In this document: positions 347 through 55,781 of the stretch, piece after piece
Position numbering within the stretch: the first letter of the stretch is position 1
Layout: each line of letters opens with the position of its first letter
From: Oscillospiraceae bacterium NTUH-002-81
GTDB lineage: Bacteria; Bacillota; Clostridia; Lachnospirales; Lachnospiraceae
Assembly: GCA_032620915.1 (NCBI GenBank)
Contig: CP136052.1
Location: 961,001-1,025,000, forward strand
Length of the DNA: 64,000 nt
Direction: 5' to 3'
Position numbers and translations under genes: made by a program
The notes under the pieces: generated by a model
What the model was told of the DNA's origin: nothing
What the model saw: the letters and a program-made list of their open reading frames with translations, nothing else
Databases searched by the model: none

Positions 347-1100
347 TTACAGCACCTTATTCAGGAACTCTTTCAGTCTCGGGTTTTTCGGGTTGCCGAA
401 GAATTCAGCCGGGGTTCCTTCTTCCTGGATCCTGCCGCCGTCGATGAAGATGACGCGGTCGGCCACCCTCTCTGGCAAAGCCCATCTCGTGGGTGACGAC
501 CACCATGGTCATGCCTTCCTCGGCCAGCTCCTTCATGACGTTCAGCACCTCGCCGACCATTTCCGGGTCCAGGGCGGAGGTGGGCTCATCGAAGAGCAGG
601 ATGTCGGGATCCATGGCCATGGCTCTGGCGATGGCTACCCGCTGGCGCTGTCCGCCGGACAGACGGACGGGATATTCCGGGGCCTTGTCTTTGAGGCCGA
701 CCCGGTCCAGCAGCGTCAGGGCCCGCTCCTCGGCCTGCTCCTTCGGCACCTTTTTCACATTGATGGGGGCCGCGGTGATATTGTTCATGACGGTCATGTT
801 GCTGAACAGGTTAAAGTTCTGAAACACCATACCGATCTTTTCTCGGATATGGTCGATGTTGGCCTTGCGGGAATTGATCTGCTCCCCCTCGAAGATGATC
901 TCTCCGGCGGTGGGTTCCTCCAGCCGGTTCAGACAGCGGATAAACGTACTTTTGCCGGAACCGGAAGGGCCGATGACAGCGACCACTTCACCTTTGTGGA
1001 TATCGATGTCAATGCCGTTTAATACTTCCAGATGGCCAAAATGTTTTTTCAGGCCCCGCACCTGGAGCAGGGCTTCTCCTGTCATCTTATCGTGTGACAC
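347..1100 (-). pseudogene. Polar amino acid ABC transporter ATP-binding protein, frameshifted near its C-terminus
   Basis: This is the ATPase of a glutamine/cystine/arginine-type importer. Walker A (GPSGSGKST), signature ([15 protein letters not shown]), Walker B ([14 protein letters not shown]) and H-loop (VVVTHEM) are all intact. After MGFARE the frame is broken by one extra C in the CCC run at 466-468. Removing one base restores a normal family ending ([14 protein letters not shown] onward) to the stop at 347-349, giving about 250 residues. As read, the frame instead ends at 405 with a nonsense tail. The GTG at 1100 sits about 10 nt after GGAGG and overlaps the permease stop; an ATG at 1085 is the alternative. 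The truncated product keeps every ATPase motif, so it may be partly functional, or the extra base may be a sequencing error. Confidence 0.85.
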
Positions 1101-15126: not shown

Positions 15127-16350
15127 ATGCAGCATTCGATTGAAGATATCGAGTATGCCGAGTATCTGTTTGACCGTTTCTACGGGATCGGAAGCTCAGA
15201 CAACGGCGGCGTGACCCGTCTGGGCTATACCGAGGTAGAGGACGAGATGCACGACACCCTGCGGGCGCTGGGCGACGAGAAGGGCTACGGCAATTACGAG
15301 GACGAGGTGGGCAACACCTACCTGTACGATAAAGACTGTGACATGGATGACCCGTATTACCTCATCGGTTCCCATCTGGACTCCGTTATCGAGGGTGGCC
15401 GGTATGACGGCGTGGCCGGTGTTATCACAGGCCTGATGATCTTAAACTGGGCCAAACGGGATCACCTGGGACTGCCCATCCGGGTGGGCGCCATGCGCTG
15501 TGAGGAATCCAGCAACTTTGGCAGGAGCACCATCGGCAGCGGCCTGATCACAAAGGAAGTATACAAACACGACATCGGCGATGCGGTGAACAAGCGGGGG
15601 GAGACGCTGCGGGAGGTATTTGCCCGCAAGGGATACAATCTCCAGCCCCAGCGCATCCAAGGTATCAAGGAATACATCGAGCTCCATATCGAGCAGGGAA
15701 AGGTGCTGGAGGAGTACGGCGATAAGGTGGGCATTGTGCAGACCATCGCAGGCCCCCGCCGGTTCAACATCCACATTCACGGCAACGCGGAGCACTCCGG
15801 CGCAACACCCATGGGCATGCGTACCGATGCCCTCTGCGCGGCAGCGGAGATCATTCTGGAAATCGAGGAGATCGGAAAATCCGAGTCCATGTACCAGTCG
15901 GTAGCCACCGTGGGTGTCATCACCAACCATCCCAACGCCCTGAACGTCATCCCCGGCGAGGTGGAGTTGGGCGTGGACATGCGAGGCATCGACCCGGCCA
16001 GCCTGGATCGAATGGAAGCCCGGCTGAAAGCGGTGTGCAAGCGGGTGTGCGAGAAGCGGAAAATGAAATATTTCCGGGAAAAAACCTCCGACATTCCGCC
16101 CATCGGCATGTCTGTGGAACTGCAGCAGAAGCTGCTCCACGCGGCGAAAGAGCTGAAAATCCCTCACCGCTCCATGATCAGCGGTGCCGGACATGACGCC
16201 ATGTCCTTTGCCCATATCTGCGACACGGCCATGGTATTCATCCCCTGCGCCAAGGGCATCAGCCATAATAAGAAAGAGTTTACTACCATCGAGTCCATCT
16301 GTGACGGCGCTAAGGTGATTTATGAGTATCTGAAGGAGGAAGCACGATGA
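15127..16350 (+). CDS. M20-family N-carbamoyl-amino-acid hydrolase / allantoate amidohydrolase-type enzyme
   Basis: 407 residues. Zinc and catalytic marks: IGSHLDSVIEGGRYDGVAG (His and bridging Asp), MRCEESSNFGRSTIGS (Glu pair), HIEQGKVLE, the dimerisation-domain start GNAEHSGATPMGMRTDA and MISGAGHDAMSFA. This is the AmaB/HyuC/AllC group that removes a carbamoyl or ureido group. It would act on the ring-opened product of the 12407 enzyme. AAGGAGG precedes the ATG. Its last codons overlap the start of the next gene by 4 bases (ATGA). Confidence 0.88.
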   Translation: MQHSIEDIEYAEYLFDRFYGIGSSDNGGVTRLGYTEVEDEMHDTLRALGDEKGYGNYEDEVGNTYLYDKDCDMDDPYYLIGSHLDSVIEGGRYDGVAGVITGLMILNWAKRDHLGLPIRVGAMRCEESSNFGRSTIGSGLITKEVYKHDIGDAVNKRGETLREVFARKGYNLQPQRIQGIKEYIELHIEQGKVLEEYGDKVGIVQTIAGPRRFNIHIHGNAEHSGATPMGMRTDALCAAAEIILEIEEIGKSESMYQSVATVGVITNHPNALNVIPGEVELGVDMRGIDPASLDRMEARLKAVCKRVCEKRKMKYFREKTSDIPPIGMSVELQQKLLHAAKELKIPHRSMISGAGHDAMSFAHICDTAMVFIPCAKGISHNKKEFTTIESICDGAKVIYEYLKEEAR

Positions 16351-17628
16351 TCCTGATTAAAGACGGCCGGGTCGTTGACCCGAAAAGAGGCATTGACGAT
16401 GTGCTGGACCTTCTCATCGAGGACGGCAAGATCAAGAAGATCGGAAAATATCAGCGCTCCGACGATTACGAGCGGATCGTGGAGGCCAAGGGGGCTCATT
16501 GTGGCGCCGGGGCTCATCGATGTGCATGTGCACTTCCGGGATCCGGGATTTGAATACAAAGAGGATATTGTCAGCGGTTCCAGGGCTGCGGCCAGGGGCG
16601 GCTACACCACCGTCATCTGCATGGCCAACACCAAGCCGGTGGCAGACAATTCCGACACCATCCATTACATTCTGGAAAAAGCGGCAGGCTGTGACGTCAA
16701 CGTGCTGACCTGCGGTTCCATCACCAAGGGGTTAAAAGGCGAAGAGCTGGTCAATATGGAAGAGCTGAAAGCCTGCGGCGCGGTGGGCTTCACCGACGAC
16801 GGCATCCCGCTGATGGATGAGAAACTGACCAAGGCTGCTATGGAAGAGGCCAAGCGGCTGGACGTACCTCTGTCCTTCCATGAGGAAGACAAGGCCTTCA
16901 TCGAGACACCCGGTGTGAACCAGGGAAAAGTATCCGAAAAGCTGGGCCTGGGCGGCGCTCCGGCGCTGGCTGAGGACGTGCTGGTGGCCAGAGACTGTAT
17001 GCTGGCGCTGCACACCGGCGCCAAGGTCAACATCCAGCACATCAGCTCCGCCAACTCCGTGCAGCTGGTGCGGCTGGCAAAGGAGATGGGCGCCCACGTC
17101 ACCGCAGAGGTGACACCTCATCATTTCTCCTTAAACGAGGATGCGGTGCTGACGAAAGGCACCCTGGCGAAGATGAACCCGCCGCTTCGTACCCGGGCAG
17201 ACCGGTACGAGCTCATTGAGGGCATCAAGGACGGCACCATCGACATCATCGCCACCGACCATGCACCCCATAGCAAGGAAGAGAAAGAGCGTCCCTTCAC
17301 CGAGGCACCCAGCGGCATCATCGGCCTGGAGACAGCCCTGGGCCTTGGCATCACCAAGCTGGTGCGCAAAGGTCATGTCACCGTCATGCAGCTCATGGAG
17401 AAAATGAGCCTGAACCCGGCCAAACTCTACAACCTGAACAAGGGCTACATCGAGGAAGGCGCGGATGCCGATCTGGTCATCTTCAGCGAGGGCGAGCAGT
17501 GGACCGTGGACGAGCATTTCGCCTCCAAAGCCTGCAATTCTCCTTTTATCGGCGAGAAACTGTATGGCAAGGTAAAATACACCATCTGCCGCGGAAAGAT
17601 CGTGTATGAGGATGGAGAGGAAAAGTAA
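16347..17628 (+). pseudogene. pyrC: Class I dihydroorotase (PyrC-type), frameshifted near its N-terminus
   Basis: The gene starts at 16347 (MILIKDGRVVDPKRGID) and runs in frame to about residue 48. There the run of five G at 16490-16494 shifts the frame by +1; with four G the text reads VEAKGLIVAPGLIDVHVHFRD. The rest is complete in the other frame to 17628: DVHVHFRDPG, MANTKP, GFTDDG, EVTPHHF, MNPPLR, IATDHAPHS, APSGIIGLET and SPFIG. These are hallmarks of class I dihydroorotase, about 426 residues when repaired. The family makes dihydroorotate in pyrimidine synthesis, but the operon context allows a catabolic ureide role. The cause may be a true mutation, homopolymer sequencing error or slippage. 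Confidence 0.87.
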
Positions 17629-25261: not shown

Positions 25262-25277
25262 TATTTAAAACTGATGA

Positions 25278-25318
25278 AAAATCGGGCTCTCTTCGCAAGC
25301 TGGAGGGCCCGATTAGTT
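25278..25318 (+). terminator. Intercistronic hairpin after binding protein 1
   Basis: AATCGGGC (25280-25287) pairs with GCCCGATT (25307-25314), and inner CTC/GAG pairs also form. Only a short T-rich tail follows, so it is probably a partial terminator or RNA-stabilising hairpin. Confidence 0.6.
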
Positions 25319-25342
25319 TATCGGCAGGGAAGGAGAGTGTGT

Positions 25343-26842
25343 ATGGACGGGAATACGATACTGAAAATGGAAAATATCCATAAGGAATTTCCGGGAGTGG
25401 TTGCACTGGACAATATTAATTTTGACCTTAAGAAAGGAGAAATACATGCTCTGCTGGGGGAGAACGGCGCAGGGAAATCTACGCTGATAAAAATTCTCGG
25501 TGGAATTTATCAGCCGGATGGCGGTGATATTTATGTGGAAAATCAGAAAGTAAAGATAGAAGCCGTGCAGGATGCGAGAAAATTGGGAATCAGTGTGATT
25601 CATCAGGAATTATGTCTGGCAGAAAACATGACGGTTACAGAGAATATTTTCCTGGGGAGAATGGAGAAAAATTCCCTGGGTTTGGTCAGGGATAAATGTA
25701 TGAATGATAAAGCCAGAAATATCATGCAGACATTTGGCCTGGAAGATATAGAACCAACCATTAAGGTCGGAAAACTGACTACGGCGCAGCAGCAGATGGT
25801 GGAGATTGCAAAGGCGCTGTCGATGGAAGCGAAAATTATCGTTATGGATGAACCGACATCTTCTCTTTCGGAAAAGGAAGTTGAAAAGCTGTTTGACTTT
25901 ATCCATGTTTTAAAGGAAAAAGAAATTTCTATTATTTATATATCCCACAGGCTGGAAGAAATATATAAAATATGTGACGTAATCACGGTGATCCGGGATG
26001 GGAAATATATCGCAAGTATGCCGGTAAAGGGGACTTCGGAGGACACGCTGATGTCCTTGATGGTAGGAAGAGATCTGTCGGATGTTTATCCGGAGCGGTC
26101 CTGGAATCAGGGGAAAACGATATTTGCAGTGAAAAATTTATCGGGAAGCGGAAAAATAAAAAATGTTAATTTCGAACTACACGAAAAGGAAATTCTGGGT
26201 TTCTATGGGTTGGTGGGAAGCGGAAGAACAGAAGTGATGAGGATGCTTTTTGGTGTAGATCCCATAGAAACCGGGGAAATTTGCATGGACGGAAAAGTGC
26301 TGCAGATCCATTGCCCGGAGGATGCGATCAAAGCGGGAATTGCCTTGTCGCCTGAAAGCAGAAAGGATCAGGGCCTGGTTCTGATTCAGAATATAGACTA
26401 TAATGTGACAATTTCTATTATTAAGGAGCTGATCAGGGGCTTCCGTCTGGATAAGAAGAAAAATGATCAGATTGTAAGAGATTACTGTACAAGGCTGAGA
26501 GTAAAGACCCCTTCCTATGAGCAAAAGGTAAAAAATCTGTCCGGAGGAAATCAGCAGAAGGTGGTTCTTGCAAAATGGCTTGCAACAAAGCCTAAAGTGC
26601 TTATTTTGGATGAACCTACCAGAGGAATTGATGTGGGGGCAAAGCAGGAAATCTATCATCTGATAAAAGAATTGTCAGAGACAGGCATTGGTGTACTGTT
26701 TATTTCTTCTGAGCTTCCAGAGATTGTACAGCTGAGCCATCGAGTGGTGGTCATGCGGGAAGGGGAGCAGGTGGTAATTCTGGGAAAAGACCATATTGAC
26801 CAGGAAGAAATTATCAAATACGTTATGGGGGGAGCAAAATGA
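25343..26842 (+). CDS. RbsA-type sugar ABC transporter ATPase (importer 1)
   Basis: 499 residues with two fused ABC domains. Domain 1 has Walker A GENGAGKST, LTTAQQQMVEIAKAL and Walker B IIVMDEPTSSLS. Domain 2 has the usual degenerate Walker A (GLVGSGRTEVMRMLFG), LSGGNQQKVVLAKWL and an intact Walker B VLILDEPTRGIDVGAK. It energises import together with the permease at 26839. The ATG at 25343 follows GGAAGGAG by 8 nt; the frame is open from 25274 without support. The stop overlaps the permease start by 4 bases. Confidence 0.94.
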   Translation: MDGNTILKMENIHKEFPGVVALDNINFDLKKGEIHALLGENGAGKSTLIKILGGIYQPDGGDIYVENQKVKIEAVQDARKLGISVIHQELCLAENMTVTENIFLGRMEKNSLGLVRDKCMNDKARNIMQTFGLEDIEPTIKVGKLTTAQQQMVEIAKALSMEAKIIVMDEPTSSLSEKEVEKLFDFIHVLKEKEISIIYISHRLEEIYKICDVITVIRDGKYIASMPVKGTSEDTLMSLMVGRDLSDVYPERSWNQGKTIFAVKNLSGSGKIKNVNFELHEKEILGFYGLVGSGRTEVMRMLFGVDPIETGEICMDGKVLQIHCPEDAIKAGIALSPESRKDQGLVLIQNIDYNVTISIIKELIRGFRLDKKKNDQIVRDYCTRLRVKTPSYEQKVKNLSGGNQQKVVLAKWLATKPKVLILDEPTRGIDVGAKQEIYHLIKELSETGIGVLFISSELPEIVQLSHRVVVMREGEQVVILGKDHIDQEEIIKYVMGGAK

Positions 26843-37246: not shown

Positions 37247-37271
37247 GTGTTTTGGAAAATGGGGGGATCAA

Positions 37272-38264
37272 ATGCAGACATCAAAACTGTTTACACTGTT
37301 ACCCGAAGAATGTTGCTGTACACCGGACGGAATGGCGATTGACCGGGAAGGCAATCTGATTCTGTCCTGTCCAAATTTTGCGGACATGTCGATGCCAAGC
37401 TGTGTGCTGAAGATTGATAAGGACAAAAATATCCGTAAGTGGTTTGATGTACCGCTGAATCCACATACAAAAAATGCGCGGAGCATGGGCATTGAATTCG
37501 GACCGGACGGAGACCTGTACATGGTGGATAACCCGGGATGGACGGAAGATCCCGGCCTGGTATTTACCGGGAGAATTTTAAGACTGCGCCTGAATGACGA
37601 AGGCGTGGTGAAGTGTACCGTTGTTGCAGACAACATGGAGCATCCAAACGGCATCCGTATATGGGGAGATTATATGTATGTGACCCAGAGTTATCTGCGC
37701 AGGGAGAAGACGGAATCAGGAAATCTGATGAGCTGTGTATACCGCTTTCCGCTGGATGCGGAGAATATCCACTGCACGAACACGCTGGATGACAAGGAAA
37801 TCTTCCTGACATTTATCACGGAGAATCCCAAATGTCAGTATGGGGTGGACGGCATCATATTCGACCATGAGGGCAATCTTTACGTGGGTAATTTCGGAGA
37901 TGGCGCTGTACACAAGATCACGTTCAATGAAGATGGTTCCGTGAAAGAAAATAAGATCTGGGCGAAGGATCCGGAGAATCTGAAAAGCACGGATGGTATG
38001 ACCATTGACCAATATGGCAATATTTATGTGGCGGATTTTTCTGCCAACGCCATTGCCCGGATCACACCGGACGGAACAGTGAAACGGATGGCGGTGAGCC
38101 CGGACTGCGATGGATTCAACGGAGAACTGGATGAACCGGGAGAACCCATCGTATACGGCGATAAGATCATCGTATCCTGCTTCGATCTTGTGACGGATGA
38201 AGAGAAAGTAAATACAGCCCATGAGATGCCCGCGACCATGGCAATGCTGGATGTGGAACCGTAA
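37272..38264 (+). CDS. SMP-30/gluconolactonase-family lactonase
   Basis: 330 residues of six-bladed propeller type. Repeats visible are PDGMAIDREGNLILSC, GPDGDLYMVDNPG, HPNGIRIWGDYMYVTQ, VDGIIFDHEGNLYVGNFGDG and TDGMTIDQYGNIYVADFSANAI. The family uses a metal to open sugar lactones, which fits the upstream oxidoreductases. The ATG at 37272 follows a GGGGGG ribosome site; the open frame from 37143 lies inside the VOC gene. A terminator follows. Confidence 0.87.
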   Translation: MQTSKLFTLLPEECCCTPDGMAIDREGNLILSCPNFADMSMPSCVLKIDKDKNIRKWFDVPLNPHTKNARSMGIEFGPDGDLYMVDNPGWTEDPGLVFTGRILRLRLNDEGVVKCTVVADNMEHPNGIRIWGDYMYVTQSYLRREKTESGNLMSCVYRFPLDAENIHCTNTLDDKEIFLTFITENPKCQYGVDGIIFDHEGNLYVGNFGDGAVHKITFNEDGSVKENKIWAKDPENLKSTDGMTIDQYGNIYVADFSANAIARITPDGTVKRMAVSPDCDGFNGELDEPGEPIVYGDKIIVSCFDLVTDEEKVNTAHEMPATMAMLDVEP

Positions 38265-38454: not shown

Positions 38455-39639
38455 ATGAAAATGAAAAAGCTGTTGTCGCTGCTGACGGTGTCAGCACTGG
38501 TCGTTGGACTGATGGGATGTGCAAGTTCCGATACGAGCACAAGCTCTGAACCGGCGGACACCAAGGAGGAGGCCGCAGAGTCCACAGATGACACGGAAGA
38601 GGCAAAGGATACTGCAGGTGCAGTAGATTACAAGAACTTTACCATCGACCCGTCTCAGATTCCGCAGGAGAAGCTGGATACCACGGTTTATCTTGCAGTA
38701 TCCGTACGTGGACTGGAGAATCCTTACATCGCTACCATCAACGAAGGTATGAAGATGTTTGCAGCATATCTGGATTCCATCGGACAGAAGTACGAGACCC
38801 AGGTTCTGGATTCTCAGGGTGATTCCGTTGTCGAGGTTGACAACATGCGTCAGTTTGCTGCAAAGGCAAACGGTAATGCCATCGCATACGCTGATCCGAA
38901 TGAGGACTCTATCGCATACTCTCTGGCAGAGGCAATGGCAGAGTCCGGCGGATATCTGGGAACTGCATGGAACAAGCCGGCAGATGTAAGTCCGGAAGAT
39001 CTTACCCCGAACTGGGTAATCCATACCGCTCCGGATAACGTAAACAATGGTTATCAGATTGCCAAGGCTCTGTTCGAACAGATGGGCGGCTCCGGCAAGA
39101 TCTTTGCGATCCAGGGACTGCTCGGAAATACTTCCAACACAGACCGTTATGCAGGACTGCAGAAGGCTCTGGAAGAGTATCCGGACATCGAAGTTGTTTA
39201 TGATGACACTGCAAACTGGAACACCGACGAAGCTCTGGCTCTTGTTGAGACATGGCTGACCACCTGCCCGGATGTTGCAGGTATCTGGTGTGCAAATGAC
39301 AGCATGGGAACCGGTGCTCTGCAGGCTCTTGATGCAGCAGGCCTCAAGGGCAAGGTTGGTGTTGTAGGCGTTGACGCAAACACAGACTTCGTTCAGGCAG
39401 TTGCTGACGGATATGCAACCGCTACCGTTTCTTCCAATGGATATTTACAGGGCGGTTATACACTCGCTATCTGCTATGCGGCATGGGCTGGTCTCATTGA
39501 CGTAGCAGAACTTCCGGCAGAGTATCGTGAATTCGCTACTCCGGTACAGATCATCGATAGCGCAGATGCTGCAAAAGAATATCTGTCCTCCACACCGGAA
39601 TTTGATTTCAGCAAAATCTTTGATTGCAAAGCTGATTAA
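38455..39639 (+). CDS. Sugar ABC transporter substrate-binding lipoprotein (importer 2)
   Basis: 394 residues. The lipobox is L-M-G-Cys22, followed by an unusually long acidic Ser/Thr/Glu linker to about residue 65. The binding domain is of the sugar-binding 4 type: TVYLAVSVRGLENPYIATINEGMKMFAAYL, VVEVDNMRQFAAKANGNAI, NVNNGYQIAKALFEQMGGSGKIFAI, GIWCANDSMGTGALQALDAAG and VVGVDANTDFVQAVADG. The position where most members have a PxIxID strand reads GYLGTAWNKP. It is first gene of importer 2 and is followed by a perfect hairpin. Confidence 0.92.
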   Translation: MKMKKLLSLLTVSALVVGLMGCASSDTSTSSEPADTKEEAAESTDDTEEAKDTAGAVDYKNFTIDPSQIPQEKLDTTVYLAVSVRGLENPYIATINEGMKMFAAYLDSIGQKYETQVLDSQGDSVVEVDNMRQFAAKANGNAIAYADPNEDSIAYSLAEAMAESGGYLGTAWNKPADVSPEDLTPNWVIHTAPDNVNNGYQIAKALFEQMGGSGKIFAIQGLLGNTSNTDRYAGLQKALEEYPDIEVVYDDTANWNTDEALALVETWLTTCPDVAGIWCANDSMGTGALQALDAAGLKGKVGVVGVDANTDFVQAVADGYATATVSSNGYLQGGYTLAICYAAWAGLIDVAELPAEYREFATPVQIIDSADAAKEYLSSTPEFDFSKIFDCKAD

Positions 39640-39658
39640 ATAAGTAACCAATTCATGC

Positions 39659-39694
39659 AGGGGACGGATCAGTGATCCGTCCCCTCTATTTCTT
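39659..39694 (+). terminator. Intercistronic terminator-like hairpin after binding protein 2
   Basis: Perfect 12-bp stem AGGGGACGGATC (39659-39670) with GATCCGTCCCCT (39674-39685), a 3-nt loop and a T-rich tail. Together with the hairpins after the other binding-protein genes it points to reduced expression of downstream genes. Confidence 0.75.
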
Positions 39695-39713
39695 AAAATT
39701 CGGGGTGATGCTC

Positions 39714-40730
39714 ATGAAAACTCATAATTCTTCGATTACGATACAGGAAGAATTTGTACAGAAAATTCAGGACGACAACCGTAAGGAAAAGCTGATGCAG
39801 CTGGCACCGCTCCTGGTGTTGGTCGGATTGATCGTTGTGTTTACCTGCATCTGCGGAACCGCATTTGTCAGCCCTGGCAACTTTATCAATCTGATGAACC
39901 AGCTGGCACTGCCTTTGGTGGTCGCTCTGGGCCTGACCTTTGTTATTATGCTTGGAAGCATTGACCTGTCTATTGATGGAACCGTAGGTATGGCAGGATC
40001 TGTTTTTGCCTGCCTGGTCATGAATACACAGAATGATAATGATTTTGGATTTGCCGGAGTGATCCTTGCGATCCTTCTGAGCACGTTATGCGGTATGCTC
40101 ATTGGCCTGTGCCATGTATATCTGAGAATTCCGTCCTTTATGGCTTCCTTTGCTTTTATGTATATCTGCAGAGGTATCGGAATGATTTCTTACCAGGGCC
40201 ATCCGCCGACAATTACGGATGAGTTTTTTGCAGGTCTGTCGAAAGTGAAGACCTTTGGCATCCCGGCGGTGACATGGGTTGCGCTGGTGATGTTTGTGAT
40301 TTGTTATGTGATTCAGGAATATACTCCTTTTGGACGCCACATTTATGCGGTCGGAACCAATGAAGCGATACCGAAGGCAGTTGGCGTCAGCGTACAGAAG
40401 GTTAAAATTAAAGTCTTTACCCTTGCAGGTTTTCTGTTTGGCGTGGCAGGCGTTCTCGGTGCCATCCGTATGGGACAGGGACAGGTTGCCATTGGCGCAG
40501 GAAAGATGTTCCCGGCACAGGCGGCCGTTGTTGTGGGTGGCACGGCACTGAGCGGCGGTAAAGGCGGTGTCAGAAATACCTTTGTCGGTGTTTTGATCAT
40601 GACTGTTCTGGAAAATGGTCTGACAATGGTTGGTGTGAATCCAAATATCCGGACCGGTATTCAGGGTGTGATTATTCTGATTTCAGTTATCCTTACGGCG
40701 GCTCGCGGCGCCAAGGTTATCAGCAAGTAA
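39714..40730 (+). CDS. Sugar ABC transporter permease A (importer 2)
   Basis: 338 residues of RbsC type. Membrane segments start near residue 30. Marks are LALPLVVALGLTFVIMLGSIDLSIDGTVGMAG, LIGLCHVYLRIPSFMASFAFMYICRGIGM, FGRHIYAVGTNEAIPKAVGVSVQKVKIKVF and VVVGGTALSGGKGGVRNTFVG. It differs clearly from permease B at 42287, so the importer likely has a heterodimeric channel rather than the usual homodimer. The ATG at 39714 follows GGGGTG by 6 nt. Confidence 0.9.
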   Translation: MKTHNSSITIQEEFVQKIQDDNRKEKLMQLAPLLVLVGLIVVFTCICGTAFVSPGNFINLMNQLALPLVVALGLTFVIMLGSIDLSIDGTVGMAGSVFACLVMNTQNDNDFGFAGVILAILLSTLCGMLIGLCHVYLRIPSFMASFAFMYICRGIGMISYQGHPPTITDEFFAGLSKVKTFGIPAVTWVALVMFVICYVIQEYTPFGRHIYAVGTNEAIPKAVGVSVQKVKIKVFTLAGFLFGVAGVLGAIRMGQGQVAIGAGKMFPAQAAVVVGGTALSGGKGGVRNTFVGVLIMTVLENGLTMVGVNPNIRTGIQGVIILISVILTAARGAKVISK

Positions 40731-40745
40731 AGGGGGCGTCTGGGA

Positions 40746-41564
40746 ATGGAAGAAAAAGATTATCTGTTTTACGCGAAAGATATTACCAAGTCCTTTGCCG
40801 GAACAAAAGCGCTCAAAGGTGTTGACCTTGCGGTAAAGCCGGGCGAGATCGTCGGACTGGTAGGTGAGAACGGCGCGGGAAAATCGACCCTGCTGAAGAT
40901 CATCATCGGTGCACAGCCGCAGACATCCGGCACGATGACACTGGGCGGCAGCAATTATGAGCCGAAGAATCCCATGGATGCCAATAAAGCCGGGATCGGC
41001 ATGGTATTCCAGGAGCAGTCTCTGATCGTGAATCTGAATGTGTCTCAGAATATTTTCTTCGGACATGAACATGAATTCAGAACCGGTGGATTTGTCAACT
41101 GGAAGAAAATGAATGCAGCGGCATCGGAAGTGCTGGCGGCCGTGGATATCACAGATATCAATCCGGCCAAGAAAGTCAGTGAACTGAATTTTGCGACCCG
41201 CCAGATGGTAGAGATCGCCAAGGTTATGAACGTAACCAAGCAGTCCGGTGCAGAACACTGCCTGATCTTGCTGGATGAGCCTACCTCTGTGTTGAACCAG
41301 AGTGAGGTTGAGAATCTGTTTGTGCAGATGAGAAAGATCACGGCACAGGGGCATTCCATTATTTTTGTATCTCATCATCTGGATGAGATCCTGGAGATCA
41401 CAGACAGAATCTATGTTTATAAAGACGGAACGAGTGTGGGAAGCCTGGATACGAAGGATGCAACAGAGGATATCCTGTATGAAATGATGGTAGGAAAAGA
41501 GACTTCTTCCGAGTACTATCACAGAGACCGGATGACGAGGCCTTCGGATGAAGTACTCCCTTGA
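40746..41564 (+). CDS. Sugar ABC transporter ATPase, N-terminal half as a separate protein (importer 2)
   Basis: 272 residues, equal to the first ABC domain of RbsA. Walker A is GENGAGKST, Q-loop MVFQEQSLIVNLNV, signature region LNFATRQMVEIAKVM (degenerate, as in RbsA domain 1), Walker B LILLDEPTSVLN and H-loop IFVSHHLDE. It stops at TGA 41562-41564 exactly at the inter-domain linker, while the second ABC domain begins at 41548 in the +1 frame. The stop context is CTC-CCT-TGA. Natural split with translational coupling, +1 frameshifting or a mutation are all possible. Confidence 0.88.
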   Translation: MEEKDYLFYAKDITKSFAGTKALKGVDLAVKPGEIVGLVGENGAGKSTLLKIIIGAQPQTSGTMTLGGSNYEPKNPMDANKAGIGMVFQEQSLIVNLNVSQNIFFGHEHEFRTGGFVNWKKMNAAASEVLAAVDITDINPAKKVSELNFATRQMVEIAKVMNVTKQSGAEHCLILLDEPTSVLNQSEVENLFVQMRKITAQGHSIIFVSHHLDEILEITDRIYVYKDGTSVGSLDTKDATEDILYEMMVGKETSSEYYHRDRMTRPSDEVLP

Positions 41565-42273
41565 AGTGAAAAATCTGGGTTCTTATGGCGTATTTAAAAA
41601 TGTCAGCTTCCAGCTCCATGCGGGGGAAGTACTGGGTCTGGCCGGCGTTGTCGGTTCCGGCGTGGAAGAGATCTGCGAGGTGATCTGCGGAGATGAGAAA
41701 CCGACTTCCGGCGAGATGTATGTGCGCGGACAGAAGGTAAACTTCAGTTGTCCGAGCAAAGCCATGAAGAAGGGGATTCTGATGATCCCGAAAGAAAGAC
41801 TGTATGAAGGAATCGTCGGTATCATGTCTATTGAAGATAACATTGCACTGTCCAACGGCGACAAGATCGCCAATGGTCTGTACATTTCTGCAAAAAAAGT
41901 AGAAGAACAGGCAACGAACTGGATCGAAAAGCTGCGGATCAAGGCCAATGGGCCCAAGGAATCTCTGATGCAGCTGTCCGGCGGAAACCAGCAGAAGGTC
42001 GTATTTGCCAGAGCACTGGCCAGTGAATGCGACATCCTGATCCTGAATCATCCGACCCGTGGCGTGGATGTGGGCGCGAAAGCGGAGATTTATGCGCTGA
42101 TCCGTGATATCACAGAACAGGGGAAAGCAGTCATTCTCCTGGGAGATACGACGGATGAATACCTGGGTCTTTCTTCCAGACTGATTGTCATGAAAGATGG
42201 TATTGTGACTGGTGAATTTGACGCGATTGATGAAATGCCGTCTCAGGTTGAAGTTGTCAGCTACATGATGTAA
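41548..42273 (+). CDS. Sugar ABC transporter ATPase, C-terminal half as a separate protein (importer 2)
   Basis: 241 residues, equal to the second ABC domain of RbsA. It has the usual degenerate Walker A (LAGVVGSGVEEICEVICG) and a good signature (LSGGNQQKVVFARAL). The Walker B end reads ILILNHPTRGVDVGAK: the Asp-Glu pair of DEPTRG is replaced by Asn-His. Both other RbsA proteins in this window keep DEPTRG. This would remove the metal-linked Asp and the catalytic Glu of this site. GAGG lies 7 nt before the ATG within the end of the first half, which supports a real re-start. Confidence 0.87.
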   Translation: MKYSLEVKNLGSYGVFKNVSFQLHAGEVLGLAGVVGSGVEEICEVICGDEKPTSGEMYVRGQKVNFSCPSKAMKKGILMIPKERLYEGIVGIMSIEDNIALSNGDKIANGLYISAKKVEEQATNWIEKLRIKANGPKESLMQLSGGNQQKVVFARALASECDILILNHPTRGVDVGAKAEIYALIRDITEQGKAVILLGDTTDEYLGLSSRLIVMKDGIVTGEFDAIDEMPSQVEVVSYMM

Positions 42274-42286
42274 GGAGGGGTGATTC

Positions 42287-43288
42287 ATGAGTGAAGAAAA
42301 GAAGAAAAAACCGTTAAAAGAACGGATTGGAGAAAATATCGTACAGTTCTTCAGCTTTTCCGCGATCATTGTGCTGGTTGTTTTCCTGTCCATATCTCAG
42401 AAGACATTTTTAAGCCCGATGAACCTGAGCAATCTGTTTCGTGATACTTCGACACTGATTGTTCTGGCATCCGGAATGTTTATGGTACTGCTGTTTGGCT
42501 CCATTGATCTGTCCATGGGAGCTGCGTGCTCGGTGTCTAACGTTCTGTATGTAAAGTTCCTTCTTACCTATGGACCGAAATTTATTCCGGCTGCAGCGGG
42601 GGTTATCGGATTGCTTATCTCCCTGATGTTTGGCGTGGTCGCAGGCGGACTGCTCGGATTTATCCATGTAAAATTAAAAGTGCCGTCCTTTATCGCATCC
42701 CTGGGATTCATGTCTGTATGGCAGTCAACGGCGCTGCTCATTACAGAGAATCCGGAATCCATTCCGAAAGCCATGTGGGGAGCGGTGAACTGGTATAAGA
42801 TTTCCTTTGGTGTATTTGGACTGCCAATTATTCTTGCACTGCTGATTGTTGCGGTGATCTTCTTCTTTACCAATTATACAACGGTAGGAAGAGCGATCTT
42901 TGCCATCGGCGGCAATGAGCGGACGGCCAGGGTGGCAGGTCTGCACGTGGACAAGATCAAAATCATTGTATTTATCATCAACGGTATGCTGGCAGCACTG
43001 GCAGGCGTGTTCCTGGCAGGCAGCGTGCGGTCCAGTTCTCCGACCATAGGCGATGCATATACGCTGAAGATTGTTGCATCCTGCGCCTTGGGCGGTGTTT
43101 CCCTGGCAGGTGGTAAAGGAAGTGTTCTTGGCGCATTGCTCGGTGTGTTTACCATTACACTGATTCAGAATGGTATGACTTTCCTTGGCGTAGATGCTTA
43201 TTCCCAGAACATTGTTCTCGGCGTGTTTGTGCTGGCAGCCATCGCCATGACGGCTGACCGGAGAAGAAAAGATCTGATCATCAAATAA
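42287..43288 (+). CDS. Sugar ABC transporter permease B (importer 2)
   Basis: 333 residues of RbsC type. It has a charged N-terminus (SEEKKKKPLKERIGENI), then membrane segments including LASGMFMVLLFGSIDLSMGAACSVSNVLYV, LLGFIHVKLKVPSFIASLGFMSVWQ, GRAIFAIGGNERTARVAGLHVDKIKIIVF and VASCALGGVSLAGGKGSVLGALLG. AGGAGG precedes the ATG, 13 bases after the second ATPase half. The order binding protein, permease, half ATPase, half ATPase, permease is unusual for this family. Confidence 0.92.
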   Translation: MSEEKKKKPLKERIGENIVQFFSFSAIIVLVVFLSISQKTFLSPMNLSNLFRDTSTLIVLASGMFMVLLFGSIDLSMGAACSVSNVLYVKFLLTYGPKFIPAAAGVIGLLISLMFGVVAGGLLGFIHVKLKVPSFIASLGFMSVWQSTALLITENPESIPKAMWGAVNWYKISFGVFGLPIILALLIVAVIFFFTNYTTVGRAIFAIGGNERTARVAGLHVDKIKIIVFIINGMLAALAGVFLAGSVRSSSPTIGDAYTLKIVASCALGGVSLAGGKGSVLGALLGVFTITLIQNGMTFLGVDAYSQNIVLGVFVLAAIAMTADRRRKDLIIK

Positions 43289-44907: not shown

Positions 44908-46401
44908 ATGGCTCAGCAATACAGGCTGGAAATGAAAGGTATCACAAAGCATTTCGGCGGTGTTAAGGCGCTGACAGATGTTTCTCTCAGTGTTGAACCG
45001 GGAGAAATCCATGCGCTGATAGGAGAGAATGGTGCCGGTAAATCTACATTGATGAAAATCTTATCCGGAGCATATCAGAGAGATAAGGGACAGATCTTCA
45101 TCGATGGACAGGAAGTGAAAATCACAAATCCAAAAGAGTCCAAAGATTTGGGAATCGCAATTATTTATCAGGAGTTTATGCTCGCACCGGATCTTACGGT
45201 GGCAGAGAATATCTATATTGACAAGCTGAGCGGCGGCAAAGGCCTGATCGACTGGAAGAAGCTTCGGGAAGATGCAAAAGCACAGCTGGAGAAACTGGGA
45301 TTCGGGGACATTGACCCGAGAGCAAAATGTGGTTCTTTGAGTGTGGCATATCAGCAGGTGGTAGAGATCTGCAAATGTCTGACACGAAATGCAAAGGTTC
45401 TTGTATTCGATGAACCTACCGCAGTGCTGACTTTCTCCGAAATTCAGAAGTTATTTGAAGTAATCAAAAAACTCAGAGATGAAGGCGTAAGTATTATTTA
45501 TATCTCACATCGACTGGAGGAGATCTTTGAGTTAAGCAAACATATTACAATATTAAAAGATGGAACGTATGTGGATACGGTAGATACAGCATCCTTTGAC
45601 AAACAACGTCTTGTCAACCTGATGGTAGGCCGTGAGATGACAGAGATGTATCCGCCGCGCAATGCGAAGATCGGCGATGTTGTATTAAAGGTAGAGGATT
45701 TACACGCAGGGAAACTGGTAGACGGTGTCAGCTTTGATGTGAAAGCCGGAGAGGTTCTTGGCTTTAACGGACTGGTCGGTGCCGGACGTACAGAAACCAT
45801 GCGGGCGATTTTCGGAGCAGATAAGAAAGAATCCGGAAAAGTATATTATTTTGGAAAAGAAGTTAATTGGAAGACACCGGGCCAGGCGATCAAAGAAGGA
45901 TTTGGCCTGCTTCCTGAAGATAGAAAGAAACAGGGATTACTGCTGAATCAGAGTATCCGGGTAAATACCACACTTGCGTGTCTGAAAAAGGTGACCAACC
46001 ATGGCGTCATCCAGCATGCGAAGGAAAAAGAGTACGTCAAAGAACTGCTGAAGAGTATTCAGACAAAATACGGAAGTACAGAAGACGATGCAAGCAGCCT
46101 TTCCGGTGGTAACCAGCAGAAGATCGCGCTGGCAAAATGGATCGCAGCTGACTGCAAATGCGTTGTCTTTGACGAACCGACCCGAGGCGTAGATGTCGGT
46201 GCGAAGACAGAGATTTATAAGATCATCAATAATCTGGCAGAAAACGGCGTTGCAGTTATCATGATTTCCTCTGAGATGCCGGAGATCATCGGCATGTGTG
46301 ACCGGGTAGTTATCATGAGAAATGGTAAGGTGACCGGTGAACTGCAGAAAGAGGAACTCACGGAGAATATGATGATTAAATATGCGATGGGGGTACAGTG
46401 A
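44908..46401 (+). CDS. RbsA-type sugar ABC transporter ATPase (importer 3)
   Basis: 497 residues with two fused ABC domains. Domain 1 has GENGAGKST, LSVAYQQVVEICKCL and VLVFDEPTAVLT. Domain 2 has GLVGAGRTETMRAIFG, LSGGNQQKIALAKWI and a canonical CVVFDEPTRGVDVGAK. This normal fused form is the internal contrast to importer 2. GGAAGGATGG lies upstream of the ATG. The stop and the permease start share bases (TGATG). Confidence 0.94.
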   Translation: MAQQYRLEMKGITKHFGGVKALTDVSLSVEPGEIHALIGENGAGKSTLMKILSGAYQRDKGQIFIDGQEVKITNPKESKDLGIAIIYQEFMLAPDLTVAENIYIDKLSGGKGLIDWKKLREDAKAQLEKLGFGDIDPRAKCGSLSVAYQQVVEICKCLTRNAKVLVFDEPTAVLTFSEIQKLFEVIKKLRDEGVSIIYISHRLEEIFELSKHITILKDGTYVDTVDTASFDKQRLVNLMVGREMTEMYPPRNAKIGDVVLKVEDLHAGKLVDGVSFDVKAGEVLGFNGLVGAGRTETMRAIFGADKKESGKVYYFGKEVNWKTPGQAIKEGFGLLPEDRKKQGLLLNQSIRVNTTLACLKKVTNHGVIQHAKEKEYVKELLKSIQTKYGSTEDDASSLSGGNQQKIALAKWIAADCKCVVFDEPTRGVDVGAKTEIYKIINNLAENGVAVIMISSEMPEIIGMCDRVVIMRNGKVTGELQKEELTENMMIKYAMGVQ

Positions 46402-54827: not shown

Positions 54828-55781
54828 ATGAAATTAGAAGCAGCAACAAGACCTACCATGTACTTTATTGGCGTTACCACAGGATCTTCTTCTATCATGA
54901 AGGTGTTCCCGGAGTGGGTAAAATATCTTGGCATTGATGCCCAGATCAAGGGCATTGACATTGCCATCCACGAGAAACCGGAAGTGTACCGCGAGGTAGT
55001 AGACTTTATCAAAAAGGATCCGTTATCTCTGGGTGCCCTTGTTACCACCCACAAGATCGACATTTATGCGGCTGCTCATGACATGTTTGACGTGATCGGG
55101 CCTTACGCAAAACAGTTTGGCGAGATTTCTTCCATTTACAAAGATGGGGACAAATATTGCTGCGAGGCAAAGGATCCCATCACCTGCGGCATGGCAATGG
55201 AGGAGTTTGTTCCTGCAAATTACTGGAAAGAGCATCCGGAAGCAGGCGTGATGATCATGGGCGCAGGTGGAAGCTGTATTTCCATGTGTTCTTATTACAT
55301 GAGAAATTCCGGCAAGGGCAATGATCCGAAGAACATCGTTGTGGCAAACCGTTCCACACCGAGACTGGATGAGTGCAAAAAGATCAACGAAGAGTTTTAT
55401 CCGAACACCATCCCGGCAGAGTATTTCCTGACACCTGATCCGGGCCAGAACGATGACGTCATGGCAAAAGAGATGGGAGAGGGCTCTCTGATCATCAATG
55501 CCACCGGCCTTGGAAAAGACCGTCCGGGTTCTCCGCTGACAGATGCGGCACAGTTCCCGAAGAAAGCCATCGTGTGGGAGATCAACTATAGAGGCGAGCT
55601 GACCTTCATGCATCAGGCAGAGGCACAGGAGAAAGAAAAAGAACTGGATATCCAGGATGGCTGGATGTATTTTGTATATGGCTGGACACAGGTAATGGCT
55701 GATGTGTTCCACTGTGAGCTGCTTGGCGAGAAACTGAAAAAACTCAGCGAGATTGCACGTGAGGTACAGAGCAGAAAGTAG
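54828..55781 (+). CDS. AroE-like (shikimate dehydrogenase family) oxidoreductase
   Basis: 317 residues, longer than AroE of about 270. The substrate domain carries GALVTTHKIDIYAAAHD, equivalent to the VTIPHK motif with the catalytic Lys. The nucleotide domain shows MIMGAGGSCISMC, VVANRSTPRLDEC and LIINATGLGKDRPGSPLTDAA. Usual AroE details such as the SxS shikimate clamp at the N-terminus are not clear (VTTGSSSIM may correspond). In a sugar island it may act on a cyclic polyol or lactone-related keto acid instead of shikimate. Function is unproven. Confidence 0.75.
   Translation: MKLEAATRPTMYFIGVTTGSSSIMKVFPEWVKYLGIDAQIKGIDIAIHEKPEVYREVVDFIKKDPLSLGALVTTHKIDIYAAAHDMFDVIGPYAKQFGEISSIYKDGDKYCCEAKDPITCGMAMEEFVPANYWKEHPEAGVMIMGAGGSCISMCSYYMRNSGKGNDPKNIVVANRSTPRLDECKKINEEFYPNTIPAEYFLTPDPGQNDDVMAKEMGEGSLIINATGLGKDRPGSPLTDAAQFPKKAIVWEINYRGELTFMHQAEAQEKEKELDIQDGWMYFVYGWTQVMADVFHCELLGEKLKKLSEIAREVQSRK

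Follow-up and report, generated by a model that had tools for sequence, protein, structure and literature searches.

A locus in Oscillospiraceae bacterium NTUH-002-81, within the 64,000-nucleotide stretch of contig CP136052.1 analysed here (the window), appears to encode a sugar importer whose ATPase lies in two open reading frames, the second with an altered Walker B motif, flanked by two different permease genes. It raises the question of which of these features belong to the transporter and which to the assembly. Our overall reading, in which we place considerable confidence, is that the locus is a CUT2 operon, that its ATPase gene is interrupted by a frame break (an indel being the likeliest cause and a private mutation the other), and that the encoded protein belongs to a clade in which the NBD2 site is dead.

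Layout of the importer locus

Five open reading frames, all on the forward strand, were confirmed in the order given by the preliminary description, from 38455 to 43288. The first (38455..39639) encodes a sugar-binding lipoprotein-type substrate-binding protein that matches Peripla_BP_4 (Pfam PF13407, E 2.2e-40); phmmer placed a homologue ahead of permease A in 13 fetched relatives, and the annotation of L079 shows one there too. Permease A follows (39672..40730; BPD_transp_2, PF02653, E 3.2e-37), with an open reading frame that starts at GTG and a real start that is probably one of the ATG codons shortly downstream. The NBD1 half of the ATPase (40746..41564) matches PF00005 and the NBD2 half (41548..42273) matches the Pfam ABC ATPase domain. 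Their best NCBIfam matches were, respectively, to the N-terminal and C-terminal halves of fused sugar ATPases, and the fused ATPases aligned to the two halves include RbsA, AraG and XylG. Permease B (42287..43288; BPD_transp_2, PF02653, E 6.6e-34) was placed by tree analysis as a paralogue of permease A.

A Peripla_BP_4-type binding protein, a BPD_transp_2 permease and an ABC ATPase in one operon, all identified by Pfam, mark the CUT2 type. Judged by these domain matches, the locus is a CUT2-type (RbsABC-like) ABC importer operon composed of binding protein, permease A, fused two-NBD ATPase and permease B. In all listed matches, the binding protein and permeases fell below the equivalog cut-offs of the named NCBIfam importers (ribose, arabinose, xylose, allose, galactofuranose and AI-2), as did the ATPase halves, which is expected of halves. 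The two fused ATPase paralogues in the window (25274-26842 and 44908-46401) both read DEPTRG, as had been described, and each of their importers (L017 and L018) has a single permease after the ATPase and none ahead of it within the flanks seen.

The surroundings of the locus are partly shared with its relatives L034-L036, with not every gene present in every locus. A gene of SMP-30/gluconolactonase type (37269-38261) lies beside the importer, and further common neighbours are dehydrogenases of the short-chain and zinc types, a member of the phosphotriesterase family, an FGGY kinase and a gene (54828-55781) that resembles shikimate dehydrogenase by eye and has no Pfam match. Relative L035 also holds close relatives of the DEPTRG importer of the window and of the zinc dehydrogenase. 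To judge by these gene families, the neighbours suggest that a sugar or polyol is used oxidatively.

The interruption between the ATPase halves

For searches and trees we used a read-through protein, made by our own joining of the two halves. Its best database match was P0121, a fused ATPase of 508 aa from the same species, with 506 of 508 residues identical and two differences, R265K and N285D. P0121 represents 64 member sequences from 11 contigs, and the free half 2 is clustered separately, with 8 members from 1 contig. When the window was compared with P0121 and seven fused relatives, the reading frame was found to depart by a single base from that of the intact fused gene, at a run of C at 41558..41560 (forward strand).

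The same junction was followed through related genomes. A survey of the family (E 1e-68, 7 candidates scored per genome) gave a match in 6 of 397 genomes, our own included; the other genomes contributed six loci, in 5 of 396 genomes, whose open frames are 515 to 632 residues long. When these six loci and L001 were aligned with the window, all seven read NHPTRG and crossed the junction without a change of frame, so that no second split member was seen among the seven fetched NHPTRG relatives. No further NHPTRG relative was identified in the genus survey (4 genomes, E 1e-50), and in the class survey (E 1e-135, 3 candidates scored per genome) only our own genome matched, 1 of 391. The CUT2 arrangement of two NBDs in one polypeptide is therefore present in P0121 and the relatives, while the window as assembled has two frames. 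Two separate ATPase genes had been proposed, and this does not hold: the boundary between them is a one-base frame break. It had been anticipated that close relatives with a fused DEPTRG ATPase would overturn the proposal; the relatives are indeed fused, and their motif is NHPTRG rather than DEPTRG.

These data indicate that the split is an interruption at the inter-domain linker that is specific to this assembly and most likely arose as an indel during sequencing or assembly. Frame breaks of a similar kind affect two further conserved genes of the window. In the ATPase of a GlnQ-like amino-acid importer (405-1100, reverse strand), the NCBIfam match stops at profile position 201 of 240, and a peptide in the next frame matches profile positions 200-239, the last ~40 residues. 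In a dihydroorotase-like gene (about 16330-17628; open reading frame 16375-17628), the match begins at profile position 47, and another frame upstream resembles the missing start by eye. Both of these frame breaks adjoin runs of G, which makes an assembly indel the likeliest cause of the break in the importer ATPase. Elsewhere in the same genome, at G000:C1:2214475-2215951 (L019), a paralogue of the fused ATPases lies in two frames of 444 and 130 residues, with LNEPTRG as its NBD2 Walker B. Of 68 matches to a fused paralogue of the window in 14 other genomes, 2 were short, and one of these begins only 20 bases into its contig, at base 21.

The break could instead be a private loss-of-function mutation in the strain, leaving a recent pseudogene, with half 2 perhaps translated from a chance GAGG and ATG. 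The closed, single-contig state of the genome and the eight member sequences in the cluster of free halves would fit such a mutation. The breaks in other conserved window genes, dihydroorotase included, point to the assembly instead, and the remainder of the operon appears intact. We regard a private mutation as unlikely, though it is the strongest of the alternatives.

A functional split, in which the halves are the two subunits of a heterodimer and one of its sites is dead, was the arrangement originally suggested. In its favour, the break is located in the linker, coding signal persists on either side of it, and half 2 is preceded by a ribosome-site sequence, GAGG (41537-41540), with a spacing of seven bases to the ATG at 41548. 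This sequence does exist, as had been noted; it sits, however, within the linker codons of NBD1, one of which is changed in P0121 (R265K). With the same-species protein fused and none of the seven fetched NHPTRG relatives split, a heteromeric ATPase is very improbable, and we rejected it on the evidence of P0121. Programmed +1 frameshifting, which would join the halves during translation across a 17-base overlap of the frames with no stop between to block the shift, is less probable still: the fused frame of P0121 and the relatives requires none, and since the relatives are simply in frame, a conserved slippery element is not expected.

The split ATPase is thus very probably an artefact, and its removal eliminates a false lead. 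Since conserved genes in this assembly carry frame breaks, other genes in it that appear split or truncated should be treated with caution.

Conservation of the altered Walker B motif and permease pair

In the window, the NBD1 motifs are intact at Walker A, Walker B (LDEPTS) and the switch His, with a degenerate signature (NFATRQM). NBD2 has an intact signature (LSGGNQQK), together with LILNHPTRG at Walker B, Val in place of the Walker A Lys, and Asp at the switch-His position (LLGDTTDE). The reported loss of both the Walker B Asp and the catalytic Glu from NBD2 is real, and it is conserved: NHPTRG was found in 119 of the 120 full-length relatives among the matches listed, a frequency far above chance. 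A private origin of the motif was rejected on this count. In the same 120 relatives, NBD1 Walker A was intact in every protein and the NBD2 signature LSGGNQQK in 119. The single full-length relative among these 120 with DEPTRG, P0202, matches P0002 as far as the NBD2 signature and then continues with classic DE-type sequence. By this pattern it is a probable metagenomic assembly chimera, and it was kept in the counts.

A wider set of 240 proteins was used to relate Walker B to the switch position. After exclusion of three without a readable Walker B motif (P0049, P0053 and P0065), the NBD2 Walker B pair was NH in 178, DH in 16, DE in 41, DD in 1 and AQ in 1. Wherever His occupied Walker B (NH and DH), Asp-Thr (xDT) was present at the switch-His position (194 of 194), and wherever DE or DD occurred, Ser was present there (SSE or SSD, 42 of 42). 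P0071, the only AQ protein in the set, combined AQPTRG with SAD; it is among the rows that we take to be NupO-like, a label of our own. The NBD2 Walker A motif was located in 165 NH proteins, and 118 of these retained its Lys.

An ATPase tree of 60 rows was built with the Walker B and switch columns removed. It was a quick tree with SH-aLRT as its only support; L018 (a duplicate of L046) and L019 (a broken gene) were omitted by choice, L060 and L068 are absent as the Walker A pattern missed both, and three of the rows kept duplicate the sequence of another row. The 21 NH rows formed one branch (SH-aLRT 100), as did the six DH rows (98), and NH and DH together formed one branch (95). On this tree, the His-type ATPases are one clade of a single origin, with NHPTRG and DHPTRG proteins as sister groups. 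DEPTRG, the usual CUT2 motif at NBD2 Walker B, is found neither in this ATPase nor in 119 of the 120 full-length relatives among the matches listed; since the clade and the DE-type ATPases are neighbours in the tree, its absence is read as a subfamily difference. An ATPase from the same family, L059, is fused, reads LDCPTRG with SEE at the NBD2 switch position, and forms a long branch next to the His-type clade.

Gene order was also constant. Binding protein, permease A, ATPase and permease B occurred in this order in all 15 His-type loci examined, namely the window, L034-L039, L001, L040-L045 and L079, the last assigned from annotation and motif. His-type loci occur in Bacillota and on Pseudomonadota plasmids, and Treponema is also among the source names of relatives, by name only. 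Among 30 loci fetched with a DEPTRG paralogue, none had a permease immediately ahead of the ATPase in the flanks seen, and three (L060, L069 and L074) had two permease open reading frames downstream; 27 of the 30 were DE-type and three were not (L059, L070 and L071), and some flanks end at contig ends. In a permease tree of 56 rows, L079 being absent and the tree again a quick one supported by SH-aLRT only, the A subunits of 14 loci formed one branch (98) and the A and B subunits together another (93). The B subunits alone did not form one branch (2 changes). Since the A subunits form one branch and A and B group together, the pair of permeases is old. The claim of two different permeases was thus upheld, and it holds in all 15 loci. 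Taken at the level of sequence, the His-type clade is an old family of bacterial sugar importers with two different membrane subunits.

Relation to known importers and a possible mechanism

E. coli RbsABC resembles the importer studied here in its fused two-NBD ATPase, with NBD1 motifs intact and NBD1 signature degenerate, an NBD2 signature of LSGGNQQK, and loss of the NBD2 Walker A Lys and switch His. It differs in that RbsA keeps DEPTRG and SSE and works with a single permease, RbsC. E. coli YtfQRT-YjfF and LsrACDB share a CUT2-type fused ATPase and two different permease genes, but have DEPTRG with SSE or SSD, and their permease genes both come after that of the ATPase instead of lying on either side of it. 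Two permeases alone therefore do not bring the Walker B change, since YtfR and LsrA keep DEPTRG alongside two permeases. The DHPTRG importers, the sister group of the NHPTRG clade, share the gene order and the His/Asp change. They are carried on plasmids of Rhizobium, Sinorhizobium, Mesorhizobium, Phyllobacterium, Paraburkholderia and Janthinobacterium. They differ in keeping the Walker B Asp, and their ATPases are 43-47% identical to P0121 in 6 records and 38.7% in L079.

A nucleoside importer of NupNOPQ/BmpA type does not fit the locus: its ATPase falls outside the NupO-like branch, and its binding protein matches Peripla_BP_4. The NupO-like ATPases of our own and related genomes form a separate nucleoside branch with SH-aLRT 100. 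The guanosine importer NupNOPQ of B. subtilis resembles the importer studied here in its fused ATPase NupO, two permeases and second-site losses, as given in the available part of a published survey (PMC11466899). In that part of the survey, B. subtilis RbsA and NupO have one degenerate site each, and the second site of NupO is without the Walker A Lys and without the Asp and Glu of Walker B (PMC11466899).

The motif table shows how far a degenerate second site is shared. The E. coli ATPases RbsA, YtfR and LsrA have GxGRTE at NBD2 Walker A, without Lys, Ser in place of the NBD2 switch His, and a degenerate NBD1 signature, with NBD2 Walker B remaining DEPTRG. The ATPase studied here has the same CUT2 feature at NBD2 Walker A, the switch His and the NBD1 signature; elsewhere in its clade many members have the Walker A Lys. 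As the second site is already degenerate in the three E. coli proteins, one dead site is normal in the family. The novelty of the dead site claimed for this locus is weakened by E. coli RbsA, YtfR and LsrA and, in the part of the survey available, by B. subtilis RbsA and NupO (PMC11466899). By its motifs and gene order, the His-type clade shows the most advanced decay of the second site, together with a constant pairing of two dissimilar permeases.

No specific name for the His-type subfamily was found in the NCBIfam matches or the literature searched, and the strings NHPTRG and DHPTRG were absent from that literature, literal strings being a weak test. A PDB search with a fused paralogue (E 1e-40) gave no match; one with P0121 (E 1e-12) gave 246 sequences, with no CUT2 ATPase in the best 60 of the 246.

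The motifs suggest how such a transporter might work. The second site is stripped of essentially all catalytic residues, with the catalytic Glu replaced by His, the switch His by Asp, and the facing NBD1 signature degenerate; the Walker B Asp appears as Asn in the Bacillota group and is retained in the other. The first site, where the Walker A, Walker B and switch His motifs of NBD1 face the canonical NBD2 signature, is intact. One ATP would then be hydrolysed per cycle, at the first site, and NBD2 may serve as a structural, signature-donating partner and docking platform. Each NBD may dock its own permease, which would fit an obligate pair of unlike permeases.

It is possible, though we would not call it probable, that the HPTRG clade is a distinct subfamily in which NBD2 is purpose-built as a non-hydrolysing domain, the His and Asp might pair across the dead site, and the asymmetry is coupled to a division of labour between the permeases. 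If so, one side of the transporter would be powered and the other passive or regulatory. The His-type clade offers a test case for why ABC transporters keep one ATP site dead, and for a possible link between such a site and dissimilar membrane halves.
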